Part shown: piece after piece, positions 2,721 through 14,321 of the stretch | Layout: the number at the start of each line of letters is the position of its first letter | Position numbering within the stretch: the stretch's first letter is position 1 | From: Candidatus Termititenax sp. | GTDB taxonomy: Bacteria > Margulisbacteria > Riflemargulisbacteria > GWF2-35-9 > DYQY01 | Assembly: GCA_020719045.1 (NCBI GenBank) | Contig: DYQY01000025.1 | Coordinates: 1 to 14,401, forward strand | Reading direction: 5' to 3' | DNA: 14,401 nt | Made by a program: the position numbers and the translations under genes | The notes under the pieces: model-generated | Told to the model about the DNA's origin: nothing | The model's input: only the letters and a program-made list of their open reading frames with translations | Databases searched by the model: none

Positions 2721-3173
2721 ATGGATTTTTTCTTTTTTATTAATACAATTCTTATTACTGTCTTCGGTATTCTTACCGTCAAACTAGTATTAGAATATAA
2801 AATGAATATCTCCAGAAACACAAAATCATCAAACAACAAACCTCGATATGGTTTCATTTCTCCTTCTGCAACATACAATCTACTTTATAAATCAGATTCT
2901 GGTGATGAATATATTGTTATTGACATTCGAAGTGAAAATGAGTTTTTGCGTGGTCACATAAGAAATGCAATAAACATGCCTATACGTAACTTCAAAAATT
3001 CTTCACTACTAAAAGACCTCAACAAAAATGAATCCTATATTTTATGCGGTCAACGCCACTCAAGCTCTCAAAAAGCAATGGAAGTAATGAAACTATTTAG
3101 TTTTATGCGAGTCTACTGCATGACCGGTGGAATGATTGAATGGAATCTGCACGACTATCCTACTGAGAAATAA
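2721..3173 (+). CDS. Membrane-anchored single-domain rhodanese
   Basis: The 150-residue protein has an N-terminal hydrophobic helix (about 3-25) and then one rhodanese domain. The domain shows VIDIRSENEFLRGHIRNAINMP (residues 66-87; the CH2A/CH2B region of the family) and an active-site loop starting at C109 (LCGQRHSSS). It closes with the usual GGMIEW turn. Rhodanese cysteines carry a persulfide and move sulfane sulfur between donors and acceptors. The membrane anchor suggests work at the inner membrane, with unresolved side. The start is supported by AGGGG 6 nt upstream. The 3' end overlaps the convergent hydrolase gene by 14 bp. Its substrate and partner are unknown; the nearby hydrogenase maturation locus also handles sulfur, but nothing links them directly. 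Confidence 0.88.
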   Translation: MDFFFFINTILITVFGILTVKLVLEYKMNISRNTKSSNNKPRYGFISPSATYNLLYKSDSGDEYIVIDIRSENEFLRGHIRNAINMPIRNFKNSSLLKDLNKNESYILCGQRHSSSQKAMEVMKLFSFMRVYCMTGGMIEWNLHDYPTEK

Positions 3174-3834
3174 CTTTCGGACTAATTATTCCTTCAAACC
3201 AATCCAAAATATCTCCACAAACCTTAGTCTTTGGCAACTTGTCGACCTCCCAGAAAGTCACATCATAGCCTTTATCAAGAATCCTTCTTGAATCCCATTT
3301 AGCATGTTTTGCAGATATTTCTTCCTCAAGTAGCCCATGAACAAACAGATACGGCAAACAGTTATTCTCATCTTTGCATCTTACTATATCTGAGCTCAAG
3401 GAGCTAATAACTACCCCAGTAAAATTACATAAAGCAACAAATCTGTTCTTTTCACCAACAGCTAAATTTAATGCAAAAAAGCCACTCTCCGATACCCCAT
3501 TAAGAAGTATTTTCATCCTGCCATAATCCCTGGAAATAATACTTATTATCCTAACTATTCTTTCCTCATCTTCCTTTGTCCAAACACTACTTTTTAGTGA
3601 TTCTGGTGCAATTACTAAATAGTTACGTCTTCTTGCCTGTTCATACCAAAAATCTATAGCCTTCTTCCTATCCATTTGCCTGTCACTAAGAACCAAAATC
3701 ATCTTATCGCCTAGTTTTGGTGGCACGTATAGTCCATAATTAATCCCTTGCTCATTAAGCTCATACTTACCTTCTGGTAACTGAAAAGCAAAACAAAAAG
3801 AAATAATTAATAATAAAAACAAAGTTTTCTTCAT
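3160..3834 (-). CDS. Exported alpha/beta-hydrolase-fold protein, possibly inactive
   Basis: The 224-residue protein starts with a signal peptide (MKK, then hydrophobic LFLLLIISFCFA, likely cut after about residue 16). The body looks like the small esterase/PHB-depolymerase branch of the alpha/beta hydrolases: ILVLSD near 46, an LVIAPES strand near 73, and a nucleophile elbow GVSESG with S115. A LFVHGLLEEE segment sits where the catalytic acid normally follows. The third catalytic residue is the odd part: before the closing ILDWFEG helix the family has a GGH-type turn, but here the stretch reads DKLPKTKVCGD with no His. It may be a pseudoenzyme or use another residue. No strong Shine-Dalgarno lies close to the ATG. 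It follows the 112-residue gene on the same strand, 90 bp downstream, with a hairpin in between. Fold assignment is moderately sure; function is unknown. Confidence 0.65.
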   Translation of the reverse strand: MKKTLFLLLIISFCFAFQLPEGKYELNEQGINYGLYVPPKLGDKMILVLSDRQMDRKKAIDFWYEQARRRNYLVIAPESLKSSVWTKEDEERIVRIISIISRDYGRMKILLNGVSESGFFALNLAVGEKNRFVALCNFTGVVISSLSSDIVRCKDENNCLPYLFVHGLLEEEISAKHAKWDSRRILDKGYDVTFWEVDKLPKTKVCGDILDWFEGIISPKVISQ

Positions 3835-3924: not shown

Positions 3925-4263
3925 CTAAAATGACTGTAAGGTTTTTATATCTTTTAACTTATAAGCCTTTTCTATTTTAAGCATTACTTGTTTATTTCTT
4001 AAACGTGTTTTCTTATCTCCTGCTTTGACTGGGTCATATTTTTTCTTAAGCTCAGCATAAAGCTTATTAATATCTACTTTAACCTTTTTCTCTGGTTGCT
4101 TTGCTTTTTCTGCTTCAACAATATCGGTCTCGGCAGGTTCCTCTTCAAAAACTTCTTTTGGTAATGAACGATGATACATAATTGCAAGGATTGTAGCTGG
4201 CACTAATATACTTAGCAAAACTAAATACTGTGTTAATAACTCTTTTGTAATCTCAGGCAACAT
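3925..4263 (-). CDS. Small single-pass membrane protein, function unknown
   Basis: I do not recognise this 112-residue protein. It has one hydrophobic helix at about residues 12-30, then an acidic stretch (EVFEEEPAETDIVEAE). The C-terminal half is Lys-rich and probably helical or coiled (VDINKLYAELKKKYDP, and a KKTRLRNKQ segment). The likely layout is a short outside or periplasmic N-terminus and a charged cytoplasmic tail, by the positive-inside rule. No ribosome site precedes the ATG at 4263. Instead a TATAAT ends 6 nt before it, so the mRNA may be leaderless. It is divergent from hydG and upstream of the exported hydrolase gene, with which it could be cotranscribed. Composition and orientation support a real gene; nothing in it points to a reaction. 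Confidence 0.7.
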   Translation of the reverse strand: MLPEITKELLTQYLVLLSILVPATILAIMYHRSLPKEVFEEEPAETDIVEAEKAKQPEKKVKVDINKLYAELKKKYDPVKAGDKKTRLRNKQVMLKIEKAYKLKDIKTLQSF

Positions 4264-4309: not shown

Positions 4310-4364
4310 GTAGTTGAAAAAATCAGAACAACAAAAGCGTAACGAAATAATAGTAATCAATCGT

Positions 4365-4403: not shown

Positions 4404-5768
4404 ATGATAATTAATAATGAAAAAATACAAAATGCGCTTAACTACAAACCAACTCATTCCGAACTAGAAGAAATTCTATCAAAAAGCAAAAGATTAGAGA
4501 GGCTATCCATGCAAGAGGTCTCTGTTCTTCTCAATACCTACGATGATGGTGGCGTTAAGTCGATACTGCAAACAGCTAATTGGGTCAAAAACGAAATTTA
4601 CGGCAATAGACTGGTTATCTTCGCTCCATTATATATCTCCAATCTTTGTAACAATGACTGCACATATTGTGCCTTCCGTTGTACAAACACAAACATTGAA
4701 AGAAAAGCTCTATCTCAAGAAGAAATCTTAAAAGAAACTGAAGTACTTTTAAAAACAGGCCAAAAAAGAGTTTTACTTGTAGCTGGCGAATCTTATCCTA
4801 AAGAAGGAATAGATTATGTACTTAAAGCAATAGATACTGTTTACGCTGCCAGAGATGGAAAAAACAATATTAGAAGACTAAACGTTAATTTAGCTCCTCT
4901 TGAAGTAGAAGACTTTAAAAAACTTAAAAAACACGACATTGGAACCTATCAGCTATTTCAAGAAACTTATCATAAAGAGACATATGCAAAACTACATTTA
5001 AAAGGGCCAAAAAGTAACTATGACTACAGATTAACTGCTATTGACCGTGCATTTGAAGCTGGACTTGATGATGTAGGAATTGGTGTTCTCTTTGGATTAT
5101 ACGACCATAAGTATGAAGTACTTGCTCTCATCTCTCACATTGAATACTTAGAAGAAAAATTTGGAATGGGTCCACACACTATTTCTGTTCCAAGACTTGA
5201 ACCTGCAACAGGCTCAGAAATTGCTTCAACCCCTCCATACCCTGTTTCTGATGAAGACTTTAAGAAAATGATAGCTATCCTAAGACTTGCAGTCCCATAT
5301 ACTGGACTTATCCTAAGTACAAGAGAAACTGCTGAAATAAGAAGCGAAGCATTTGACCTAGGAATATCACAAATAAGTGCTGGAAGCAAAACTAATCCTG
5401 GTGGATACAATGATGTTGATAGTATGGAGCAATTCTCATTAGGCGACCATAGAAGCCTTGATGATGTTATCTATGATGTTTGTTTACATGGCTACATACC
5501 TTCGTTCTGCACTAGTTGTTACCGTTCTGGTCGTACAGGGCTAGACTTTATGGAATACGCTAAGCCAGGCGATATCAAGAAAAAGTGTTCACCAAATGCA
5601 CTTATTACTTTCCAAGAGTATCTAGAAGACTATGCCTCTCCAAAAACAAAAGCAATTGGCGAAAAAACTATAGCTAAAGGACTAGCAGATTTACCTGAGA
5701 AAATGAAAGAATTTACAATTAAATCAATTCAAAAAATTAAAAGTGGTGAAAGAGATATTTTCTGCTAA
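4404..5768 (+). CDS. hydG: [FeFe]-hydrogenase maturase HydG (radical SAM tyrosine lyase)
   Basis: HydG cleaves tyrosine to p-cresol and dehydroglycine and makes the Fe(CO)2(CN) cysteine synthon for the H-cluster. The radical SAM cluster motif CNNDCTYC (CX3CX2C) is at C82, C86 and C89. The HydG-specific C-terminal motif CX2CX22C is exact (C369, C372, C395, followed by SPNAL); it holds the second, five-iron cluster. I chose the ATG at 4404 (454 residues): the MIINNEKIQNALNY stretch matches where HydG proteins usually begin. The frame stays open upstream to a TTG at 4314, but the extra 30 residues look like translated intergenic DNA. No ribosome site precedes either candidate. The gene is separated from the other maturases by three unrelated minus-strand genes, and its TAA stop shares bases with the stop of the first of them (CTAA, 5765-5768). 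Confidence 0.96.
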   Translation: MIINNEKIQNALNYKPTHSELEEILSKSKRLERLSMQEVSVLLNTYDDGGVKSILQTANWVKNEIYGNRLVIFAPLYISNLCNNDCTYCAFRCTNTNIERKALSQEEILKETEVLLKTGQKRVLLVAGESYPKEGIDYVLKAIDTVYAARDGKNNIRRLNVNLAPLEVEDFKKLKKHDIGTYQLFQETYHKETYAKLHLKGPKSNYDYRLTAIDRAFEAGLDDVGIGVLFGLYDHKYEVLALISHIEYLEEKFGMGPHTISVPRLEPATGSEIASTPPYPVSDEDFKKMIAILRLAVPYTGLILSTRETAEIRSEAFDLGISQISAGSKTNPGGYNDVDSMEQFSLGDHRSLDDVIYDVCLHGYIPSFCTSCYRSGRTGLDFMEYAKPGDIKKKCSPNALITFQEYLEDYASPKTKAIGEKTIAKGLADLPEKMKEFTIKSIQKIKSGERDIFC

Positions 5769-6289
5769 ACCAAATCTTTTGATTTTGTATTCTTCTCCTT
5801 GCTCATAATCTGCCGAATTTCACTCTCATATTCAGGGTATTTAGTTATAAAAAACTTACATGCAAAGTGAACTGACACTTGAAAGCAGGTGGCATCTGAT
5901 TGATTAGCATGGTTCACTAATCTTGCCAACATATTCATAATACGTTTTGGACTACCATACCCCTGTCTATACACAGCATTTATTAACACATCCATTTTAT
6001 ATATTTCTAAGTGATTTAAGTACTTCCAGAATAAGTCTATTCGAGATGTTGGCGGAAGTGAGTCTATTATGTCTTTTATAGTTTTCTGAATGTTTACCTG
6101 GCTTTTTGAGTTTCTTATCTGCTTATACCATAAAAAAATATCATGTAATGCATTAGGGATAGAATACGGAACTTTATCATCTAGAAGACAAACCTCAAAC
6201 AACAAAGTATCATAGGCTGAATTATTCCAAAAAACGAATCCCTGTGCATCGAGCTTAAAATTCTTAAAAGCAATAACCTTACTATTCAT
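5765..6289 (-). CDS. Unknown family, paralogue 1 of a tandem triplet
   Basis: I do not recognise this 174-residue family. It shares with the next two genes an N-terminal MNxKxI...WN(H/N)xA(Y/F) motif, a central YLNHLEIYKMDVLI helix-like segment, and a C-terminal signature HANQSDATCFQVSVHFACKFF. The signature has two invariant cysteines nine positions apart (C135, C144), then YP. There is no signal peptide or membrane helix, so it is probably a soluble, largely helical cytoplasmic protein. It is closest to paralogue 2, with long identical DNA runs in the C-terminal part, which suggests recent duplication. Its ATG is 6 bp after the stop of paralogue 2 with no Shine-Dalgarno, so either translation is coupled or a GATAAA box (6295-6300) drives a leaderless mRNA. 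Its stop overlaps that of hydG. Confidence 0.85.
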   Translation of the reverse strand: MNSKVIAFKNFKLDAQGFVFWNNSAYDTLLFEVCLLDDKVPYSIPNALHDIFLWYKQIRNSKSQVNIQKTIKDIIDSLPPTSRIDLFWKYLNHLEIYKMDVLINAVYRQGYGSPKRIMNMLARLVNHANQSDATCFQVSVHFACKFFITKYPEYESEIRQIMSKEKNTKSKDLV

Positions 6290-6295
6290 ACTAAT

Positions 6296-6823
6296 TTATC
6301 GAGAATCCCATTGTTTGTAATAGTTTAGACTACCTCTAATCAAATGAATATTCCCAGCATGACTAGGGTAAACTTTAGCAAAAAACTTACAAGCAAAATT
6401 AACTGACACTTGAAAACAATCAGCATTTGACTGATTCGCATGGCTAACTAATTCACTTAATAAATCCATTATTACCTTAGGACCAATGTTTTTTTGCCGA
6501 TAAACAATATTTATCAAAAGCTCAAGCTTATATATGGCTAGATGATTTAAATATCCATAATCCTCTTCTTCCTCTGTAAGTGGTGGCAGTGTAGACAAGA
6601 TATCATTAACAACCTCTTGTGTCTGATCACTGTTTATCGTTAACAACCCATCATACATTTGCTGATACCTTAAAAATATCTGATGCAATTTTGGTGGAGG
6701 AATAAGTTCTTGCGGCCTATCAAGCCACTCAACTAAAGTATAATAGTCGTAAGCAGTGTGATTCCAAGCCACCCTTCCATCTTCAAAGTTAAATTCTCCT
6801 AATGAAATCATTTTATTATTCAT
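6296..6823 (-). CDS. Unknown family, paralogue 2 of a tandem triplet
   Basis: The 175-residue middle copy has the same plan as its neighbours: MNNKMISLGEF at the start, VAWNHTAYDYY near 18-28, YLNHLAIYKLELLI in the centre, and HANQSNADCFQVSVNFACKFF near the end with C136 and C145. An acidic EEEEDY patch precedes the YLNH segment; paralogue 3 has a different, longer insert there. No catalytic motif, signal peptide or membrane helix is visible. The conserved Trp, Asn, His and paired Cys could form a binding site, but this is a guess. A CGATAAATTTGC element lies directly before the ATG (GATAAA box 6829-6834, then 5 nt) and resembles the elements before the other two copies. The 69 bp between this gene and paralogue 3 hold no clear terminator. 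Confidence 0.85.
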   Translation of the reverse strand: MNNKMISLGEFNFEDGRVAWNHTAYDYYTLVEWLDRPQELIPPPKLHQIFLRYQQMYDGLLTINSDQTQEVVNDILSTLPPLTEEEEDYGYLNHLAIYKLELLINIVYRQKNIGPKVIMDLLSELVSHANQSNADCFQVSVNFACKFFAKVYPSHAGNIHLIRGSLNYYKQWDSR

Positions 6824-6892
6824 GCAAATTTATCGTACATCCCGGCATATATTCCCCATAATTTTAATAAAATATTGCAAAATTACATTCTA

Positions 6893-7444
6893 TTAACTAG
6901 CTAGACTAATTAGTCTTTTGTGATTTTCTGATGCTATTATTTTCTCAATCTGAGCTTTTCTTTTTGGATATAAATTCGCGAAATACTTACACGCGTAATG
7001 AACGCTAACTTGAAAACATTCTGCTGATGAATTATTAGCTTGTTCAACTAATTCACCAAGCAACTTGATTACAGCCTCTGACACATTAAGCTTAAACTTA
7101 CTCGCTTGTTGTACTAAAATATCTAACTTAAAAATCGCGAAATGATTCAAATAACTCCATATTTGATAATCATCTGCGGAAGTATGTATTAGCGACTCTG
7201 CCCTTGTTAAAACAGGAAAAAAAGCTCTAATATCTTTTGTTATAGAACGGACATCCCAACCATCAGAACGAATTAATCTAAGACTTGCCAGATATTGTTC
7301 ATGATACTTTGCAGGAATAACTGCAAACATGTACTCTACAAGCATCGACTCTGTAACCTTACTAATAGGAAAAGCAGGATGGTTCCAGACCACTTTTTCA
7401 TCTTCTATTATTATTCTAAAAAGTGAAACTATTTTAAAATTCAT
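6893..7444 (-). CDS. Unknown family, paralogue 3 of a tandem triplet
   Basis: The 183-residue first gene of the minus-strand cluster is the most divergent copy. It keeps VVWNHPAF near 18-25, YLNHFAIFKLDILV in the centre and ANNSSAECFQVSVHYACKYF near the end (C143, C152). It is longer because of an insert before YLNH (RAESLIHTSADDYQIW). No known domain, signal peptide or membrane segment is visible. It is transcribed divergently from the ammonia-lyase operon through a 99-bp spacer, so both could answer to the same regulator. The -10 box GATAAT ends 5 nt before the ATG and there is no ribosome site. Conservation of the same residues across three diverged copies shows that the protein is real and under selection, but its role is unknown. 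Confidence 0.85.
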   Translation of the reverse strand: MNFKIVSLFRIIIEDEKVVWNHPAFPISKVTESMLVEYMFAVIPAKYHEQYLASLRLIRSDGWDVRSITKDIRAFFPVLTRAESLIHTSADDYQIWSYLNHFAIFKLDILVQQASKFKLNVSEAVIKLLGELVEQANNSSAECFQVSVHYACKYFANLYPKRKAQIEKIIASENHKRLISLAS

Positions 7445-7449
7445 ATATA

Positions 7450-7479
7450 ATTATCGAACTACTTCTAAAGTTCTCCCAA
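7450..7479 (-). promoter_or_regulatory. Promoter of the unknown-family triplet, leaderless layout
   Basis: On the minus strand, TTGGGA (7474-7479) and GATAAT (7450-7455) are 18 bp apart, and the -10 box ends 5 nt before the ATG at 7444. Similar CGATAAW sequences stand at the same place before paralogues 1 and 2. Confidence 0.45.
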
Positions 7480-7543: not shown

Positions 7544-8872
7544 ATGAATATTTACGGAGATGAAACGCTTAAAGCACAAAAGAACTTTATAAACTCTGGA
7601 CTTCCAATCCATAGAAATCTTATTGTTGCCTACTCACAAATTAAACTTGCATGTGCACAAACCAATATAGAACTTGATTACTTAGATAAACTCAAAGGTG
7701 ACGCAATCTGTGAAGCCTGTAAACAAATAATTATCGGACAATTTCATGAACAAATAGTTGTAGACCCTCTTCAAGGCGGAGCTGGCACTTCCTTTAATAT
7801 GAATATTAATGAACTAATTTCATCATTAGCTTCAAAGACTACAAATCAACTAGTACACCCAATTGAAGATGTTAATATGCACCAATCCACCAATGATACT
7901 TATGGAACTGCTTTAAAGATTGCCATCTACACCTACCTTATTGAATTAGAAAATAGTTTAAATGACCTACTGGTCACATTGCAAGCAAAAGAACAAGATT
8001 TTTCTGGAATAGTAAAAATGGGCAGAACACAACTAATGCCTGCTGTACCATGTACTCTTGGACAGGAGTTTTCAGCCTACTCAGAGATGATTGGCAGAGA
8101 CAGATGGAGAATATTTAAATCACAAGAACGTATACGACAGATTAATCTTGGGGGCACTGCTATTGGAACAGGCATCACCGCACCGAAGAAGTACATCCCA
8201 CTAGTTAACGACAAGCTTCGAAACATCACAGGACTACCGATTGCAAGAGCAGAAAATTTGTTTGATGCAACACAGAACAACGATCAACTTGCTGAAGTCA
8301 TGGGTATGATTAAAGTTGTTGCTCTTAATTTAGAAAAAATGTCAAAAGACCTTCGATACTTAAATAGCATTGGAGAAATCACAGTAGATGAACTGCAAAA
8401 AGGCTCAACTGTCATGCCAGGGAAAACTAACCCTGTTATATTAGAGATGATTAGCTCAATTAGCAAAAAAGTAATAGGAAACGACCTAACGGTATCACTT
8501 GCTATAAAAGATGGCGAACTAGAACTAAACGCATTTATTCCACTTGCTGGTTACTGCACGCTAGAGTCTCTAGACATTTTAATACAAGGCATTAATAAAC
8601 TTAATAAACTTTGCATACAACCATTACAAGCTAACAAGAAAGCCTGCTATGAATTACTTGTATACGCACCAACTGTAACGACTATTCTAGTTACAAAAAT
8701 CGGGTATATAGAAGCAGAGAAACTTGCAACATATATGAAAGAAAACCACGTGGACATCTATGGTGCCTCAAAGACTCTCAATATCTCCGACAAAGAGACT
8801 ATTGATGAATTACTAAAGCCAGAAAGGATACTGTCGCTAGGTGAGTCCTTCGATAGTCCTAAAGACAAATGA
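7544..8872 (+). CDS. aspA: Aspartate ammonia-lyase (aspartase/fumarase superfamily)
   Basis: Aspartase splits L-aspartate to fumarate and ammonium. The three conserved superfamily regions are present: HQSTND at 113-118, GRTQLMPAVPCTLGQEF from 160, and the mobile catalytic loop GSTVMPGKTNP at 287-297. In that loop S288 is the expected base, with K294 and N296. The Gln in GRTQ is the form found in E. coli aspartase. GGAGTSFNMN precedes them, as in aspartases. At 442 residues it is slightly shorter than usual (about 470). Specificity for aspartate rather than fumarate or an analogue is inferred, because these enzymes are hard to tell apart by eye. It opens the operon and overlaps hydF by ATGA (8869-8872). 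The context suggests that it feeds ammonium to assembly of the hydrogenase bridging amine ligand. Confidence 0.85.
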   Translation: MNIYGDETLKAQKNFINSGLPIHRNLIVAYSQIKLACAQTNIELDYLDKLKGDAICEACKQIIIGQFHEQIVVDPLQGGAGTSFNMNINELISSLASKTTNQLVHPIEDVNMHQSTNDTYGTALKIAIYTYLIELENSLNDLLVTLQAKEQDFSGIVKMGRTQLMPAVPCTLGQEFSAYSEMIGRDRWRIFKSQERIRQINLGGTAIGTGITAPKKYIPLVNDKLRNITGLPIARAENLFDATQNNDQLAEVMGMIKVVALNLEKMSKDLRYLNSIGEITVDELQKGSTVMPGKTNPVILEMISSISKKVIGNDLTVSLAIKDGELELNAFIPLAGYCTLESLDILIQGINKLNKLCIQPLQANKKACYELLVYAPTVTTILVTKIGYIEAEKLATYMKENHVDIYGASKTLNISDKETIDELLKPERILSLGESFDSPKDK

Positions 8873-10104
8873 ATGAAACACCAAAAGGTAACAGAATACA
8901 CATAGCCATCTTTGGTAAACGCAATGTTGGAAAATCTTCCTTTATGAATGCGTTACTTGGACAACCGATGTCCATCGTTTCTGCCACTCCAGGAACAACC
9001 ACTGACCCAGTTGAAAAAGCATACGAACTTCAACCTGTAGGCCCTGTTATGTTTATTGACACAGCTGGACTAGATGACGAAGGTGAGCTTGGTAATCAAC
9101 GGATTAAACAAACAGAAATTGTAATCAATAAAACTGATATCGCTATTCTAATGATTGAACATACCTCTGATGGTGTATTTGAAAAAAATCTGATGAATAA
9201 ACTATCAGAACTTAAAATCCCAACTATTCTTGTTCTAAATAAAATAGACCTAGTTTCAGATGAGGAACTTAAAAACATTATTAACGTTTACAACAATCAA
9301 AACGCTACTATCTATCCAATATCTGTTATGCTCAACAAAGGAATAGAGGAAGCAAAGAAAGCACTTATAAAGCACATAGAAAATAAACAACCAGACCCAC
9401 CCATCATTATGGATTTAATAAAGCCTGGAGAGAATGTGGTTTTAGTTATTCCTATTGATAAAGAAGCTCCAAAAGGAAGACTAATCCTTCCACAGGTTCA
9501 AACAATTAGAGAATGCCTAGACGCGGATATTTCTTGTACTGTTGTAAAGGAAAAAGAACTACATCATACACTAACTCATGTCCTTAAACAGAAACCAAAG
9601 CTAGTAATTACAGATAGCCAAGCATTTCTGAAAGCAGATGCAGACACTCCTTCCGATATCATGCTAACCTCCTTTTCCATCCTCTTTGCTAGACAAAAAG
9701 GAGACCTTAACACCTATATAAAAGGTGTTAAACACGTAAACAAACTTAAGAACGGCGACAAAATTCTGGTAGCAGAACTATGCTCACACAAGCCAATTAC
9801 AGAGGACATCGGAAGAGTAAAAATACCTAGATGGCTAAGGCAACATACTGGTCTTAATCTTATATTTGACTTTGCGGTCGGAGCAAAACCAACCTTCAAT
9901 CCAAACGACTACGCTTTAATCATTCAGTGTGGTGGGTGCATGGTAACAAGGACACTAATAATGAACAGGATTAATGATTTACAGAAAAGCGAAATTCCTG
10001 TCACTAACTATGGAGTACTAATCGCTTACATGCATGGCATACTTAAAAGGGCGCTTACCCCCTTCCCGTCTGCCCTAATGGAGTTTGAAAATGAATCTAA
10101 CTGA
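8869..10104 (+). CDS. hydF: [FeFe]-hydrogenase maturation GTPase/scaffold HydF
   Basis: HydF carries the [2Fe] subcluster precursor and passes it to the apo-hydrogenase. The N-terminal GTPase domain shows the P-loop GKRNVGKS at 16-23, a TPGTTTDP switch I region, DTAG at 64-67 and NKID at 124-127. A dimerisation domain and then the cluster domain follow. The family cluster motif is CxH-X(46-53)-HCxxC. Here C305 and H307 are present, and the second part reads QCGGC (C354, C357), so the expected His is Gln353. The three cysteine ligands of the [4Fe-4S] cluster remain, and the 45-residue spacing fits the family. The start overlaps the aspA stop by ATGA and has no ribosome site, so it is probably made by coupled translation. 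The 3' end overlaps hydE by 14 bp. At 411 residues the length is normal. Confidence 0.96.
   Translation: MNETPKGNRIHIAIFGKRNVGKSSFMNALLGQPMSIVSATPGTTTDPVEKAYELQPVGPVMFIDTAGLDDEGELGNQRIKQTEIVINKTDIAILMIEHTSDGVFEKNLMNKLSELKIPTILVLNKIDLVSDEELKNIINVYNNQNATIYPISVMLNKGIEEAKKALIKHIENKQPDPPIIMDLIKPGENVVLVIPIDKEAPKGRLILPQVQTIRECLDADISCTVVKEKELHHTLTHVLKQKPKLVITDSQAFLKADADTPSDIMLTSFSILFARQKGDLNTYIKGVKHVNKLKNGDKILVAELCSHKPITEDIGRVKIPRWLRQHTGLNLIFDFAVGAKPTFNPNDYALIIQCGGCMVTRTLIMNRINDLQKSEIPVTNYGVLIAYMHGILKRALTPFPSALMEFENESN
10080..10083 (+). promoter_or_regulatory. Ribosome binding site that fixes the hydE start
   Basis: GGAG inside the end of hydF lies 7 nt before the ATG at 10091. This favours that ATG over the in-frame TTG at 10085, which is only 1 nt from the site. 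Confidence 0.7.
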
Positions 10105-11104
10105 AAAAGAAGTATTATCTCTACTTAAAGCTGAAGGCAAGGAACTTGCAGCACTATACAAGCAAGCCGACCAAGTTAGACAAGAAAATGTAGGTGACGA
10201 GGTTTACTTAAGAGGCATACTTGAAGTATCCAATTACTGCAAAAAGAGCTGTAATTACTGTGGTATACGTTCAAAAATAAAGAACATAACAAGATACAGA
10301 ATGGACACAACAGAGATTATACAAGCCTGCAAAGATATGGAAAGAAACAAGATGACAACAGTTGTTATCCAAGGTGGTGAGGATGCTAAACTTTCCAAAG
10401 AATACATTGGAGAACTGATTAGAAAAATTAAAAAGGAAACAAAACTTGCTATAACATTGTCGCTAGGAGACCAACCAAAAGATACGCTTATTCACTGGAA
10501 GAACTGTGGAGCTGACAGATATCTTATCCGCTATGAAAGTTCTGACCCAGACCTATTTGCAAAAGCGCATCCAGATGACGACTTAACAACCAGACTCACA
10601 TTCATTAAAACCTTACAAGAGATAGGTATACAAGCAGGCTCAGGCTTCTTAATAGGGATACCAGGACAAACGATTGAAGGACTGGCCAAAGAAATACTGT
10701 TCTGCTCAAGCCTCAACTTGGACATGATAGGAATTGGTCCATTCATACCACACCCAGATACCCCTTTTGGAATTGAGAGCAACCCTTTTGATAAAGAAGT
10801 ATTCTTTAAGGTTATTTCCATTATGCGTTTACTAAACCCTAAAGCGCATATACCTTCAACTACTGCCTTCGACGCTATCCAACCTAATGGAAGAAACCTT
10901 CTTCTTCAAAGAGGGGCTAATGTATTTATGCCAAATGCTACACCACAGAAGTACAGAAAATTCTATCAACTATATCCTAACAAACCATGCATTGATGAAA
11001 GCGGAGATGACTGTGCAAAGTGTGTACAAGGTAGAATTGTTTCTATTGGCAGAAAAATTGGGACTGACCAAGGACATAGCTTATTAGCAAAGGAGAAAAA
11101 ATGA
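10091..11104 (+). CDS. hydE: [FeFe]-hydrogenase maturase HydE (radical SAM)
   Basis: HydE is a radical SAM enzyme that acts on the HydG product to form an intermediate of the H-cluster. The SAM-cluster motif CKKSCNYC (CX3CX2C) is at C50, C54 and C57, followed by GIRSK. VVIQGGED, GSGFLIGIPGQT and an MRLLNP segment match the HydE barrel. The C-terminal CX7CX2C motif (C300, C308, C311) is kept; in HydE it binds a second, non-essential Fe-S cluster, and some homologues have lost it. The protein is 337 residues, close to the Thermotoga enzyme (about 348). The start ATG lies inside the end of hydF with a GGAG site; the stop overlaps the transporter gene by ATGA. The order aspA-hydF-hydE-transporter with overlaps indicates one mRNA. 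Confidence 0.96.
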   Translation: MNLTEKEVLSLLKAEGKELAALYKQADQVRQENVGDEVYLRGILEVSNYCKKSCNYCGIRSKIKNITRYRMDTTEIIQACKDMERNKMTTVVIQGGEDAKLSKEYIGELIRKIKKETKLAITLSLGDQPKDTLIHWKNCGADRYLIRYESSDPDLFAKAHPDDDLTTRLTFIKTLQEIGIQAGSGFLIGIPGQTIEGLAKEILFCSSLNLDMIGIGPFIPHPDTPFGIESNPFDKEVFFKVISIMRLLNPKAHIPSTTAFDAIQPNGRNLLLQRGANVFMPNATPQKYRKFYQLYPNKPCIDESGDDCAKCVQGRIVSIGRKIGTDQGHSLLAKEKK

Positions 11105-11480: not shown

Positions 11481-11558
11481 ATGACAGAGTTTTGGGAAAA
11501 ATTTTGGTATATTGTCTGCAAAAAAACTAAGTTTTACTCTTCTTTAAAAAATACTTAG
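11481..11558 (+). CDS. Possible 25-residue small ORF after the transporter
   Basis: An AAGGGA site (11468-11473) lies 7 nt before an ATG that opens a 25-codon frame (MTEFWEKFWYIVCKKTKFYS...) ending in TAG. The product would be aromatic and basic, perhaps membrane-binding. It overlaps the 3' end of the convergent fic gene. The only support is the ribosome site and its place behind the hyd operon; chance is quite possible. Confidence 0.2.
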   Translation: MTEFWEKFWYIVCKKTKFYSSLKNT

Positions 11559-12546
11559 TAGCTCTTGCTTTTCCTTCAACCTCAACAATACCAGCTTCTA
11601 TTAAAGGCGTTATTAGTTGATTAATTCTGGACCTATTTACATTTAAAGACTTTTGAAGATAAGTTGTATCTACTCTTCCTTGATATCGCAACACTTCCAA
11701 CAACTGTTGTTGTTTATCGCTCAAAATAATAGCAGTTTCCGTATTTATCCTAAGCTCCTGCAGTTTGTCATAAACTTCCTTGATAGTTACAAAAAGCCCC
11801 TCTGCAACATAATCAATCCAATAAGTGAAATCGTAATCAAGCTCTCTTGTTTGTGTTATTTTTTGATAATACCTATCCCTGTCACTAGAATAAAAATTAT
11901 CCAAATAGTAAATATGCTTGGCGTCAAATTCATTCTTATATAATATCCACTGAGACAATAACCTTGCCATTCTGCCATTCCCATCAGAAAAAGGATGAAT
12001 AGAAACAAACCAATGATGGAAAATAGCACTTTCGATTATTGGATTTCTGCTTGCATCTGCATTAAGCCAAATTAGAAGCTTGCTAATCATTTCTCTAGTT
12101 TCTTCTGGGCTAGGAGGTGTATATGTAATAATATTTTTCTCATTAACAATATAATTCTGCTTCTTTTTGTATTCACCCAAGGCTTCTTCCCTGATAAGTT
12201 TGTTACAAATAATTCTATGAAGAAATAAAATTCTTTCCTCTGTTATTTGGTTATCGTGATTCTTAAGAACCCAATCTAAAGCACTAAAATAATTTATAAC
12301 CTCTTGTTTCTGAGAAAACTCAGCAGTAATTTCTCTTTTTTCTGCTAACGCCTGCACCTGCTCCATTGATAAAGAATTTCCCTCTATGGTTGTAGATGAT
12401 TTTACTGTTAAACTCATTGCTTGTTTCTGTAGTTTATTTAAAACTGCAAACTGTATATTGCTATCATTAATCCTTGACTGCAACTGGACAATCTTTTCTG
12501 TTAAACTTAAAAAATATTCAGTTATTCTATATTTAGGGTTAAACAT
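11527..12546 (-). CDS. fic: Fic-domain protein AMP-transferase with C-terminal winged helix
   Basis: Fic proteins transfer AMP (or a related group) from a nucleotide to a target side chain. The core motif HPFSDGNGRMAR is complete at 184-195 with catalytic H184. An N-terminal helix carries the inhibitory motif (S/T)xxxE(G/N) as S51TTIEG56, where E55 would block productive ATP binding. This makes it a class II Fic protein, switched off until the helix moves. The last about 60 residues (YQGRVDTTYLQKSLNVNRSR onward) form a winged helix-turn-helix, common in such proteins and consistent with DNA binding. At 339 residues the length is usual. The ATG at 12546 has TATAAT 6 nt upstream and no ribosome site, so it may be leaderless. 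Three repeats upstream could be its own operator. The target and biological role are unknown; no antitoxin gene lies next to it. Confidence 0.93.
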   Translation of the reverse strand: MFNPKYRITEYFLSLTEKIVQLQSRINDSNIQFAVLNKLQKQAMSLTVKSSTTIEGNSLSMEQVQALAEKREITAEFSQKQEVINYFSALDWVLKNHDNQITEERILFLHRIICNKLIREEALGEYKKKQNYIVNEKNIITYTPPSPEETREMISKLLIWLNADASRNPIIESAIFHHWFVSIHPFSDGNGRMARLLSQWILYKNEFDAKHIYYLDNFYSSDRDRYYQKITQTRELDYDFTYWIDYVAEGLFVTIKEVYDKLQELRINTETAIILSDKQQQLLEVLRYQGRVDTTYLQKSLNVNRSRINQLITPLIEAGIVEVEGKARATKYFLKKSKT

Positions 12547-12998: not shown

Positions 12999-14321
12999 AT
13001 GCTTTTACAATTCTCAATAAAAAACTTTAAAAACTTCAAAGAAAAAACTACGTTAAGCTTAGTTGCAACTAACTATGACAAAGATACGCACGAAACTAAC
13101 AATATTTATCATAACAACACATTTAATCTAAGGATTCTTAATAGCGCTGCAATTTACGGTGCTAATGCAAGCGGTAAAAGTAAACTATTTGATGCGTTAA
13201 TCTTCATGAAACACTTCGTTATTTCAAGCTCCAAAGAAAGCCAACAAGGAGATACAATAAATATTGAACCTTTTCGATTAAATACTAAGTACGAGAACTC
13301 ACCCACTGAGTTTGAGATTATTTTTATTTTTAAAAATATAATGTATCGTTATGGATTTGAAGCAAATAAAGAAAAAATTATTTCAGAATGGTTATATTAC
13401 AAACCTAAAAATAAGGAAATTAAACTTTTTCTTCGCGAAGGGGATATTTTCGAAACTCACACTAGAAAATTCACAAAAGGAAAAGCAGTAATTAACGAAA
13501 ATCTCGTGAGAGACAATGCCTTACTTGTTACAGTCTCTGCACAGTTCAATGAAGAAACAGCAATTGCTGTCATTACTTGGTTTAAAAATCTAAAAACAAT
13601 TTCTGGCTTAAATGAATCAGGATATCATGGGTACACAATGAGCAAAACAACTGACCTTATTTATAAAGAGAAAATTCTAAATTTATTAATAGCAGCCGAT
13701 CTCGGTATCCAAGATATTATTCCTCAAAAATTTGACATTAGTACTCTTCCTTCTGAAATGCCAAAAGAAATAAAAGAAATTTTCATACAAAAAATTAAAG
13801 ACGCAAAAGAAGATGTTTTTTCTGATGTACTAATTAGTCATAAAACATATGATACAAATAACCAATCTTCTGGCATTGTTAATTTTTCATTAGATAAAGA
13901 AGAATCGTCTGGAACCAGAAAATTCTTTGCACTAACTGGACCTATTTTAGATGTACTAGAAAATGGGTATACGATTGTTATAGATGAACTTGATTCTAAA
14001 TTACACCCAAACTTAGTTTGCAAAATAGTATCATTATTTAACTCAAAAGAATTAAACACAAAAAATGCACAACTAATTTTTAATACTCACAACACAAACT
14101 TATTAGGTTCTAACTTATTTAGACGTGACCAAATCTGGTTTACTGAAAAAAATAAATATGGGGCTTCAATATTATATTCTTTAGCAGATTTCAAATCAAA
14201 TAAAGTTAGAAAAAAGGAATTATTTCAAGAAAATTATATTGTGGGGAAATATGGAGCTGTTCCCTACGTAAATTCTTTCGATTACATCAACCTATCCAAC
14301 AGTAATCTAATAAATGATTAA
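12999..14321 (+). CDS. AAA/ABC-type ATPase of the RloA/AbiLi family
   Basis: The 440-residue protein has the plan of overcoming-lysogenization-defect-like and RloA-type ATPases. The start LLQFSIKNFKNFKEKTTLSL is the classical first strand. Walker A GANASGKS is at 54-61, and an SMC-like signature ESSGTRKF carries S303, S304, G305 and R307. Walker B IVIDE has D329 and E330, followed by the D-loop LDSKLHP; a switch histidine lies in NTHNTNLL (H364). Between Walker A and the signature lies an insert of over 200 residues, as is usual in the family. Such proteins pair with a nuclease-like RloB/AbiLii partner in phage-defence operons. The gene overlaps the next ORF by 8 bp, which fits such a pair. 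Its own promoter and the adjacent hairpin-rich element suggest a separate cassette. The ATPase class is sure; the defence role is inferred from the family. Confidence 0.9.
   Translation: MLLQFSIKNFKNFKEKTTLSLVATNYDKDTHETNNIYHNNTFNLRILNSAAIYGANASGKSKLFDALIFMKHFVISSSKESQQGDTINIEPFRLNTKYENSPTEFEIIFIFKNIMYRYGFEANKEKIISEWLYYKPKNKEIKLFLREGDIFETHTRKFTKGKAVINENLVRDNALLVTVSAQFNEETAIAVITWFKNLKTISGLNESGYHGYTMSKTTDLIYKEKILNLLIAADLGIQDIIPQKFDISTLPSEMPKEIKEIFIQKIKDAKEDVFSDVLISHKTYDTNNQSSGIVNFSLDKEESSGTRKFFALTGPILDVLENGYTIVIDELDSKLHPNLVCKIVSLFNSKELNTKNAQLIFNTHNTNLLGSNLFRRDQIWFTEKNKYGASILYSLADFKSNKVRKKELFQENYIVGKYGAVPYVNSFDYINLSNSNLIND

Follow-up and report, generated by a model that had tools for sequence, protein, structure and literature searches.

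The locus analysed here raises the question of why three reverse-strand genes stand in the middle of a hydrogenase maturation operon, and whether they take part in the pathway whose genes surround them. The DNA (the window) is a stretch of 14,401 nucleotides from Candidatus Termititenax sp., which makes up one entire contig (14.4 kb) of an assembly of 1.75 Mb with 99% completeness. A first-pass annotation, made from the sequence alone, had described the three genes as tandem paralogues and proposed two origins for them, either an accessory factor for the H-cluster or an unrelated, lineage-specific cluster that was inserted there.

Results

The maturation locus and its three reverse genes

On the forward strand, hydG, which encodes a radical SAM maturase of the H-cluster, occupies positions 4404..5768 (TIGR03955, 518.7 bits against a cut-off of 312). 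Its start lies near 4404; the TTG at 4314, which had been listed as the start, is too early. Also on the forward strand are the aspartate ammonia-lyase-like gene aspA at 7544..8872 (Lyase_1, 1e-71; NF008909, 466 bits against a cut-off of 510), hydF at 8869..10104 (TIGR03918, 530 bits) and hydE at 10085..11104 (TIGR03956, 320.6 bits). HydG, HydF and HydE are all above the NCBIfam cut-offs. Upstream of the locus lies a gene whose product has a rhodanese domain and, at its N-terminus, a membrane-like segment (2721-3173, forward strand). Beyond the hyd operon, there are genes for a Fic-domain protein whose C-terminal region is winged-helix-like (11527-12546, reverse strand) and for an AAA_21 (AbiEii-like) ATPase (12999-14321, forward strand). 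No tRNA or Rfam element was found in the window.

Between hydG and aspA, three genes are encoded on the reverse strand. Copy 3 (6893..7444, 183 aa) is the first in the array and the most diverged of it, followed by copy 2 (6296..6823, 175 aa) and copy 1 (5765..6289, 174 aa), which is the last. As the first-pass annotation had pointed out, the stop of copy 1 overlaps that of hydG; four nucleotides (CTAA) are common to both. Compared with the middle copy, copies 1 and 3 gave E-values of 3.3e-37 and 1.7e-24, indicating that they are homologous, and in optimised alignments the array copies are 31-45% identical to each other. The tandem reverse paralogues are thus borne out by both the open reading frames and homology. 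The repeats found here consist for the most part of the gene copies, and no clear target-site duplication was found among them.

Between copies 1 and 2, conservation at codon positions 1, 2 and 3 was 0.55, 0.68 and 0.40. Among the four close members, positions 1 and 2 were better conserved than position 3, and nearly so in every pair, indicating that the three are genes under protein-level selection and not chance open reading frames. This agrees with the selected function that had been proposed for them. The predicted pI differs between the array copies (9.2, 5.3 and 8.8), and no membrane-type hydrophobic stretch was found in the proteins of the family.

An undescribed family restricted to one genus

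The first-pass annotation had noted no known family with this signature, and we likewise found no credible match in Pfam, NCBIfam, PHROGs, PADLOC or PDB sequences. NCBIfam and the PDB sequences gave no match. The best Pfam candidate was OSK (E 0.0032, under its cut-off), the best PHROGs candidate had an E-value of 0.17, and PADLOC PDC-M02B matched one member only, over 64 residues (E 0.0019, 15 bits). When phages, plasmids, IMG/VR and GTDB contigs were scanned with short single-protein and alignment patterns, no relative was found; distant members could escape such a pattern-based scan, which did not cover the window's own genome or those very close to it.

Profile searches with four and five members found the family in two of the 74 genomes of the phylum. 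Both belong to the same genus, which is represented by these two genomes: that of the window (G000), with three copies, and that of a congener (G001), with two. One copy of the congener stands at the hyd locus and was found with a single protein at E 1.1e-48. Its closest match in the array is copy 2 (46%), and a tree of the five members fails to resolve which array copy is its orthologue. The other copy is diverged and lies away from the hyd site; it was found at E 3.1e-7 with a profile (A2) that excludes it. The first-pass annotation had asked whether homologues sit beside hydE, hydF or hydG in other genomes, and this holds for the first copy of the congener but not for the diverged one. Several candidates were rejected, namely the weak hits to a histidine-kinase-like open reading frame and a 106-aa orphan in G006 and to a ferredoxin-type open reading frame in G046 and, by profile comparison, a 181-aa open reading frame beside a CheY gene in G004. 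We conclude that the trio forms an array of three copies from a protein family that is real, undescribed and restricted to the genus.

The diverged member of G001 adjoins a 106-aa orphan, a CheY-like gene and mla genes; where G001 carries this member, the genome of the window has ksgA. We also observed that the 106-aa orphan belongs to a second orphan family of 105-110 aa (L031:5300-5620, reverse; L011:860-1180, reverse; L007:1501-1833, forward; L037:4816-5133, forward), which spans the order and has no Pfam match above the cut-off. Three of its four members have the motif FPEQxFPI, and in three of four genomes (G000, G001 and G004) it adjoins a CheY-like gene.

Probable insertion into a collinear operon

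In three relatives of the same order (G003, G005 and G006), hydG, aspA, hydF and hydE are collinear, with ends that overlap or nearly abut and with no insert. In G002 and G007, hydG, hydF and hydE stand together without aspA. The association of hyd genes with aspA in operons has been described, and aspA is a reported ammonia source for the dithiomethylamine ligand (PMC11736057). The present locus shares this association with the published operons (hydG, aspA, hydF, hydE; PMC11736057), but it is split by three reverse genes, and the site of the congener lacks aspA.

Considering that the four genes form one collinear operon in three relatives, the trio would have entered this site in reverse orientation in the genus ancestor, with the insertion boundary at the hydG stop. 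From this comparison of operon order, the reverse trio most likely breaks an ancestral hydG-aspA-hydF-hydE operon. Of the two origins that had been proposed, the inserted lineage-specific cluster is the one that fits a genus-only family and an uninterrupted operon in the relatives.

In the congener, hydG is followed at this site by one reverse copy, an aspA remnant, hydF and hydE. The remnant, which corresponds to the AspA C-terminus (MNLTDEELLKPERIIALNNYF...), is located at 3680-3766 of locus L012 (G001:C83), upstream of hydF. It is a short open reading frame that stands between this reverse copy and hydF, and its product aligns with the 31 C-terminal residues of AspA (E 2.8e-5); like the intact aspA, it overlaps the start of hydF. 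The presence of this aspA end before hydF indicates that aspA was deleted from the hyd operon of the congener, and the deletion may also have removed further copies of the family. Elsewhere, G001 encodes an AspA-like protein with 41% identity (G001:C1:52385-53707).

Conserved residues and predicted structure

The motifs WN(H/N)xA(Y/F), YLNHxxI(Y/F)K and ANxSxAxCFQVSVxxACK(F/Y)F, which the first-pass annotation had listed as invariant, are all present in the three copies. Two AlphaFold (AF2) models, which have different first sequences and rest on five sequences, agree with each other (pLDDT 74 and 79; pTM 0.75 and 0.79). They show a low-confidence N-terminal beta hairpin, followed by six to seven helices. 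N93 and H94 are at the start of predicted helix 89-110, N130 and S132 are in the turn after predicted helix 115-131, and C136 is at the start of helix 135-151. Judging from the secondary structure, these five residues probably sit at the same end of the bundle. In most copies, S132-x-x-D/E135 also resembles a helix cap.

Two fixed cysteines had been described, and a metal or ligand site had been suspected there. The first (C136 of copy 2) is kept in the diverged fifth member, but the second (C145) is not. These residues are i and i+9 on one predicted helix, which by ideal helix geometry, and not by model coordinates, places them about 13 Å apart on opposite faces. Given this spacing along one helix, and the loss of C145 in the fifth member, a metal site formed jointly by C136 and C145 within one monomer is unlikely in the modelled helical fold; a site shared by two subunits may nevertheless exist.

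On the one hand, the predicted arrangement of five to six antiparallel helices is like that of HEAT, ARM, TOG and VHS superhelices. In VIA-align, the helical part resembled designed helical repeats as well as domains of the ARM, TOG, PP2A-B56 and VHS types, at Z values of up to 9.7; the best matches were 5h78_A (Z 9.7, rmsd 3.2 over 117) and 5h7c_C (Z 9.5, rmsd 4.1 over 127). On the other hand, the family has no sequence relation to these superhelices, and Foldseek gave no match with an E-value below 0.1 in PDB or BFVD. Many VIA-align rows were tied and came from differing families, and a Z under about 13 for helical proteins may reflect a common arrangement only, so that a scaffold reading of these matches is weak.

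Start-proximal boxes and promoters

A CGATAA(A/T)T box lies a few nucleotides before the ATG in all three array copies and in the diverged copy of G001; in the in-locus copy of the congener, it is not clearly seen. The box CGATAAATT is found on the reverse strand at 6290..6302, just before the start codon of copy 1, where it overlaps the stop codon of copy 2, and it is repeated with copy 2 (repeat family D2), at 6824..6836 of the same strand, just before the copy-2 start codon. The box CGATAATTA stands just before the start codon of copy 3 (7445..7457, reverse strand) and overlaps a weak sigma-70-like site (TTGGGA-18-GATAAT). The common box before the array starts suggests shared regulation. 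Across the genome, CGATAAWT-N3-5-ATG is not enriched (15 occurrences against 18 in the reversed control). We also observed a CGATAATT box before the ATG of a UPF0489 gene (G000:C1:6431, reverse strand, locus L038), whose protein begins MYKIISL, like the orphan families; both likenesses are perhaps coincidence.

The first-pass annotation had placed the promoter of the trio back to back with that of aspA. The copy-3 and aspA starts are indeed divergent and 99 bp apart, but promoter-like matches were no more numerous than in shuffled sequences (12 against 10.1 +/- 3.3), so that back-to-back promoters are plausible at most. In both species, TATAAT-N5-6-ATG is moderately over-represented relative to the reversed control (113 against 91 and 142 against 69), and thus short-leader or leaderless transcripts may be common in the lineage. 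The CGATAA box itself may be a -10-like element, which we offer as a lead only. TATAAT-like hexamers were seen 6 nt before the ATG at window positions 4263 (reverse), 12546 (reverse) and 7544 (forward).

Discussion

We consider it rather probable that the trio is a tandem expansion of an inserted, genus-restricted, fast-evolving helical family that is probably protein-binding, and that its position is inherited and not functional. A founding gene would have landed in reverse between hydG and aspA of the collinear operon in the genus ancestor, and would have been duplicated together with its start-proximal leader. Based on the models, the proteins would be small, cytosolic and all-alpha, with a compact HEAT/ARM/VHS-like alpha superhelix, and would most likely serve as protein- or peptide-binding scaffolds. 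One end, made up of the Asn-His of the YLNH helix and the ANxSxAxC turn, would be conserved, while the remainder strongly diverges; accordingly, we propose that each paralogue may bind a different or co-evolving partner. The array resembles lineage-specific orphan families with tandem paralogues, which are also unrecognised, narrow, fast-diverging and inserted in a conserved locus. What sets it apart is that its three copies form a clear array within a hydrogenase maturation operon and that their N-H ... S-x-A-x-C-F core is invariant. However, both species of the genus retain the family beside hydG, as would also be expected from a functional link, and this speaks against an inserted scaffold.

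The main rival is an array of immunity, antitoxin or defence type, in which the small helical proteins would neutralise matching toxins or phage factors. Immunity proteins are often tandem, fast-diverging, narrowly distributed and of differing charge, and defence, toxin-antitoxin and immunity proteins are often undescribed. The trio shares the tandem arrangement, rapid divergence, narrow distribution and differences in charge. However, no toxin gene is adjacent, no credible match was found in PADLOC, PHROGs, Pfam or NCBIfam, and the nearby genes for the Fic-domain protein and the AAA_21 ATPase are at least 4 kb off, beyond hydF-hydE. We regard this array type as unlikely.

An H-cluster accessory or regulatory factor of this genus only, which helps HydG, AspA or HydF, for example as a chaperone or precursor-transfer scaffold, would explain why the family lies between hydG and aspA or hydF in both species, each of which encodes one HydA. 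HydA is present in G000, G001, G002, G003, G005, G006 and G007, and HydF in the same seven, but profile searches did not find the family in the last five of these. Relatives within the order, together with an outgroup from the class, thus have HydA and HydEFG but not the family, indicating that its presence does not track [FeFe]-hydrogenase and hydEFG across genomes. In both species, the genes are on the strand opposite to the hyd operon, and one paralogue is away from it. The family is 46% identical between the species, against 86% for HydG, 81% for HydE and 75% for HydF (TauE-like, 69%; CheY, 79%; 106-aa orphan, 74%), so it evolves far faster than the maturases. The absence in relatives, the off-site member and the fast divergence are unexpected for a factor needed in H-cluster assembly, and the cysteines, nine residues apart on one helix with the second lost in the fifth member, also speak against it. 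The hydrogenase link of the family is positional, and the accessory role that the first-pass annotation had put forward is improbable. It is very improbable that a genus-specific helical factor was recruited to the hyd operon to assist or regulate H-cluster assembly or the ammonia supply for dithiomethylamine, with paralogues adapted to different Hyd partners.

A signalling adaptor tied to the CheY-like regulator, by which the family would belong with the 106-aa orphan and CheY of the congener's second site, is hardly probable: the diverged G001 member is convergent with these two genes and both orphan families begin MxxKI(I/V)(S/G), but in a profile comparison with the 106-aa family (A5) only the first 14 residues align (probability 17%), the 106-aa orphan and CheY of the window's own genome have no family member beside them, and the pair also occurs in G004, where the family was not found.

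In summary, a gene between maturase genes need not be a member of the pathway, and comparison of gene order exposes an operon that was broken by orphans. With its clear signature, the trio establishes a protein family that is new and undescribed. Additionally, the gain of orphans and the loss of aspA at one hyd locus bear on the strength of the tie between aspA and H-cluster assembly.
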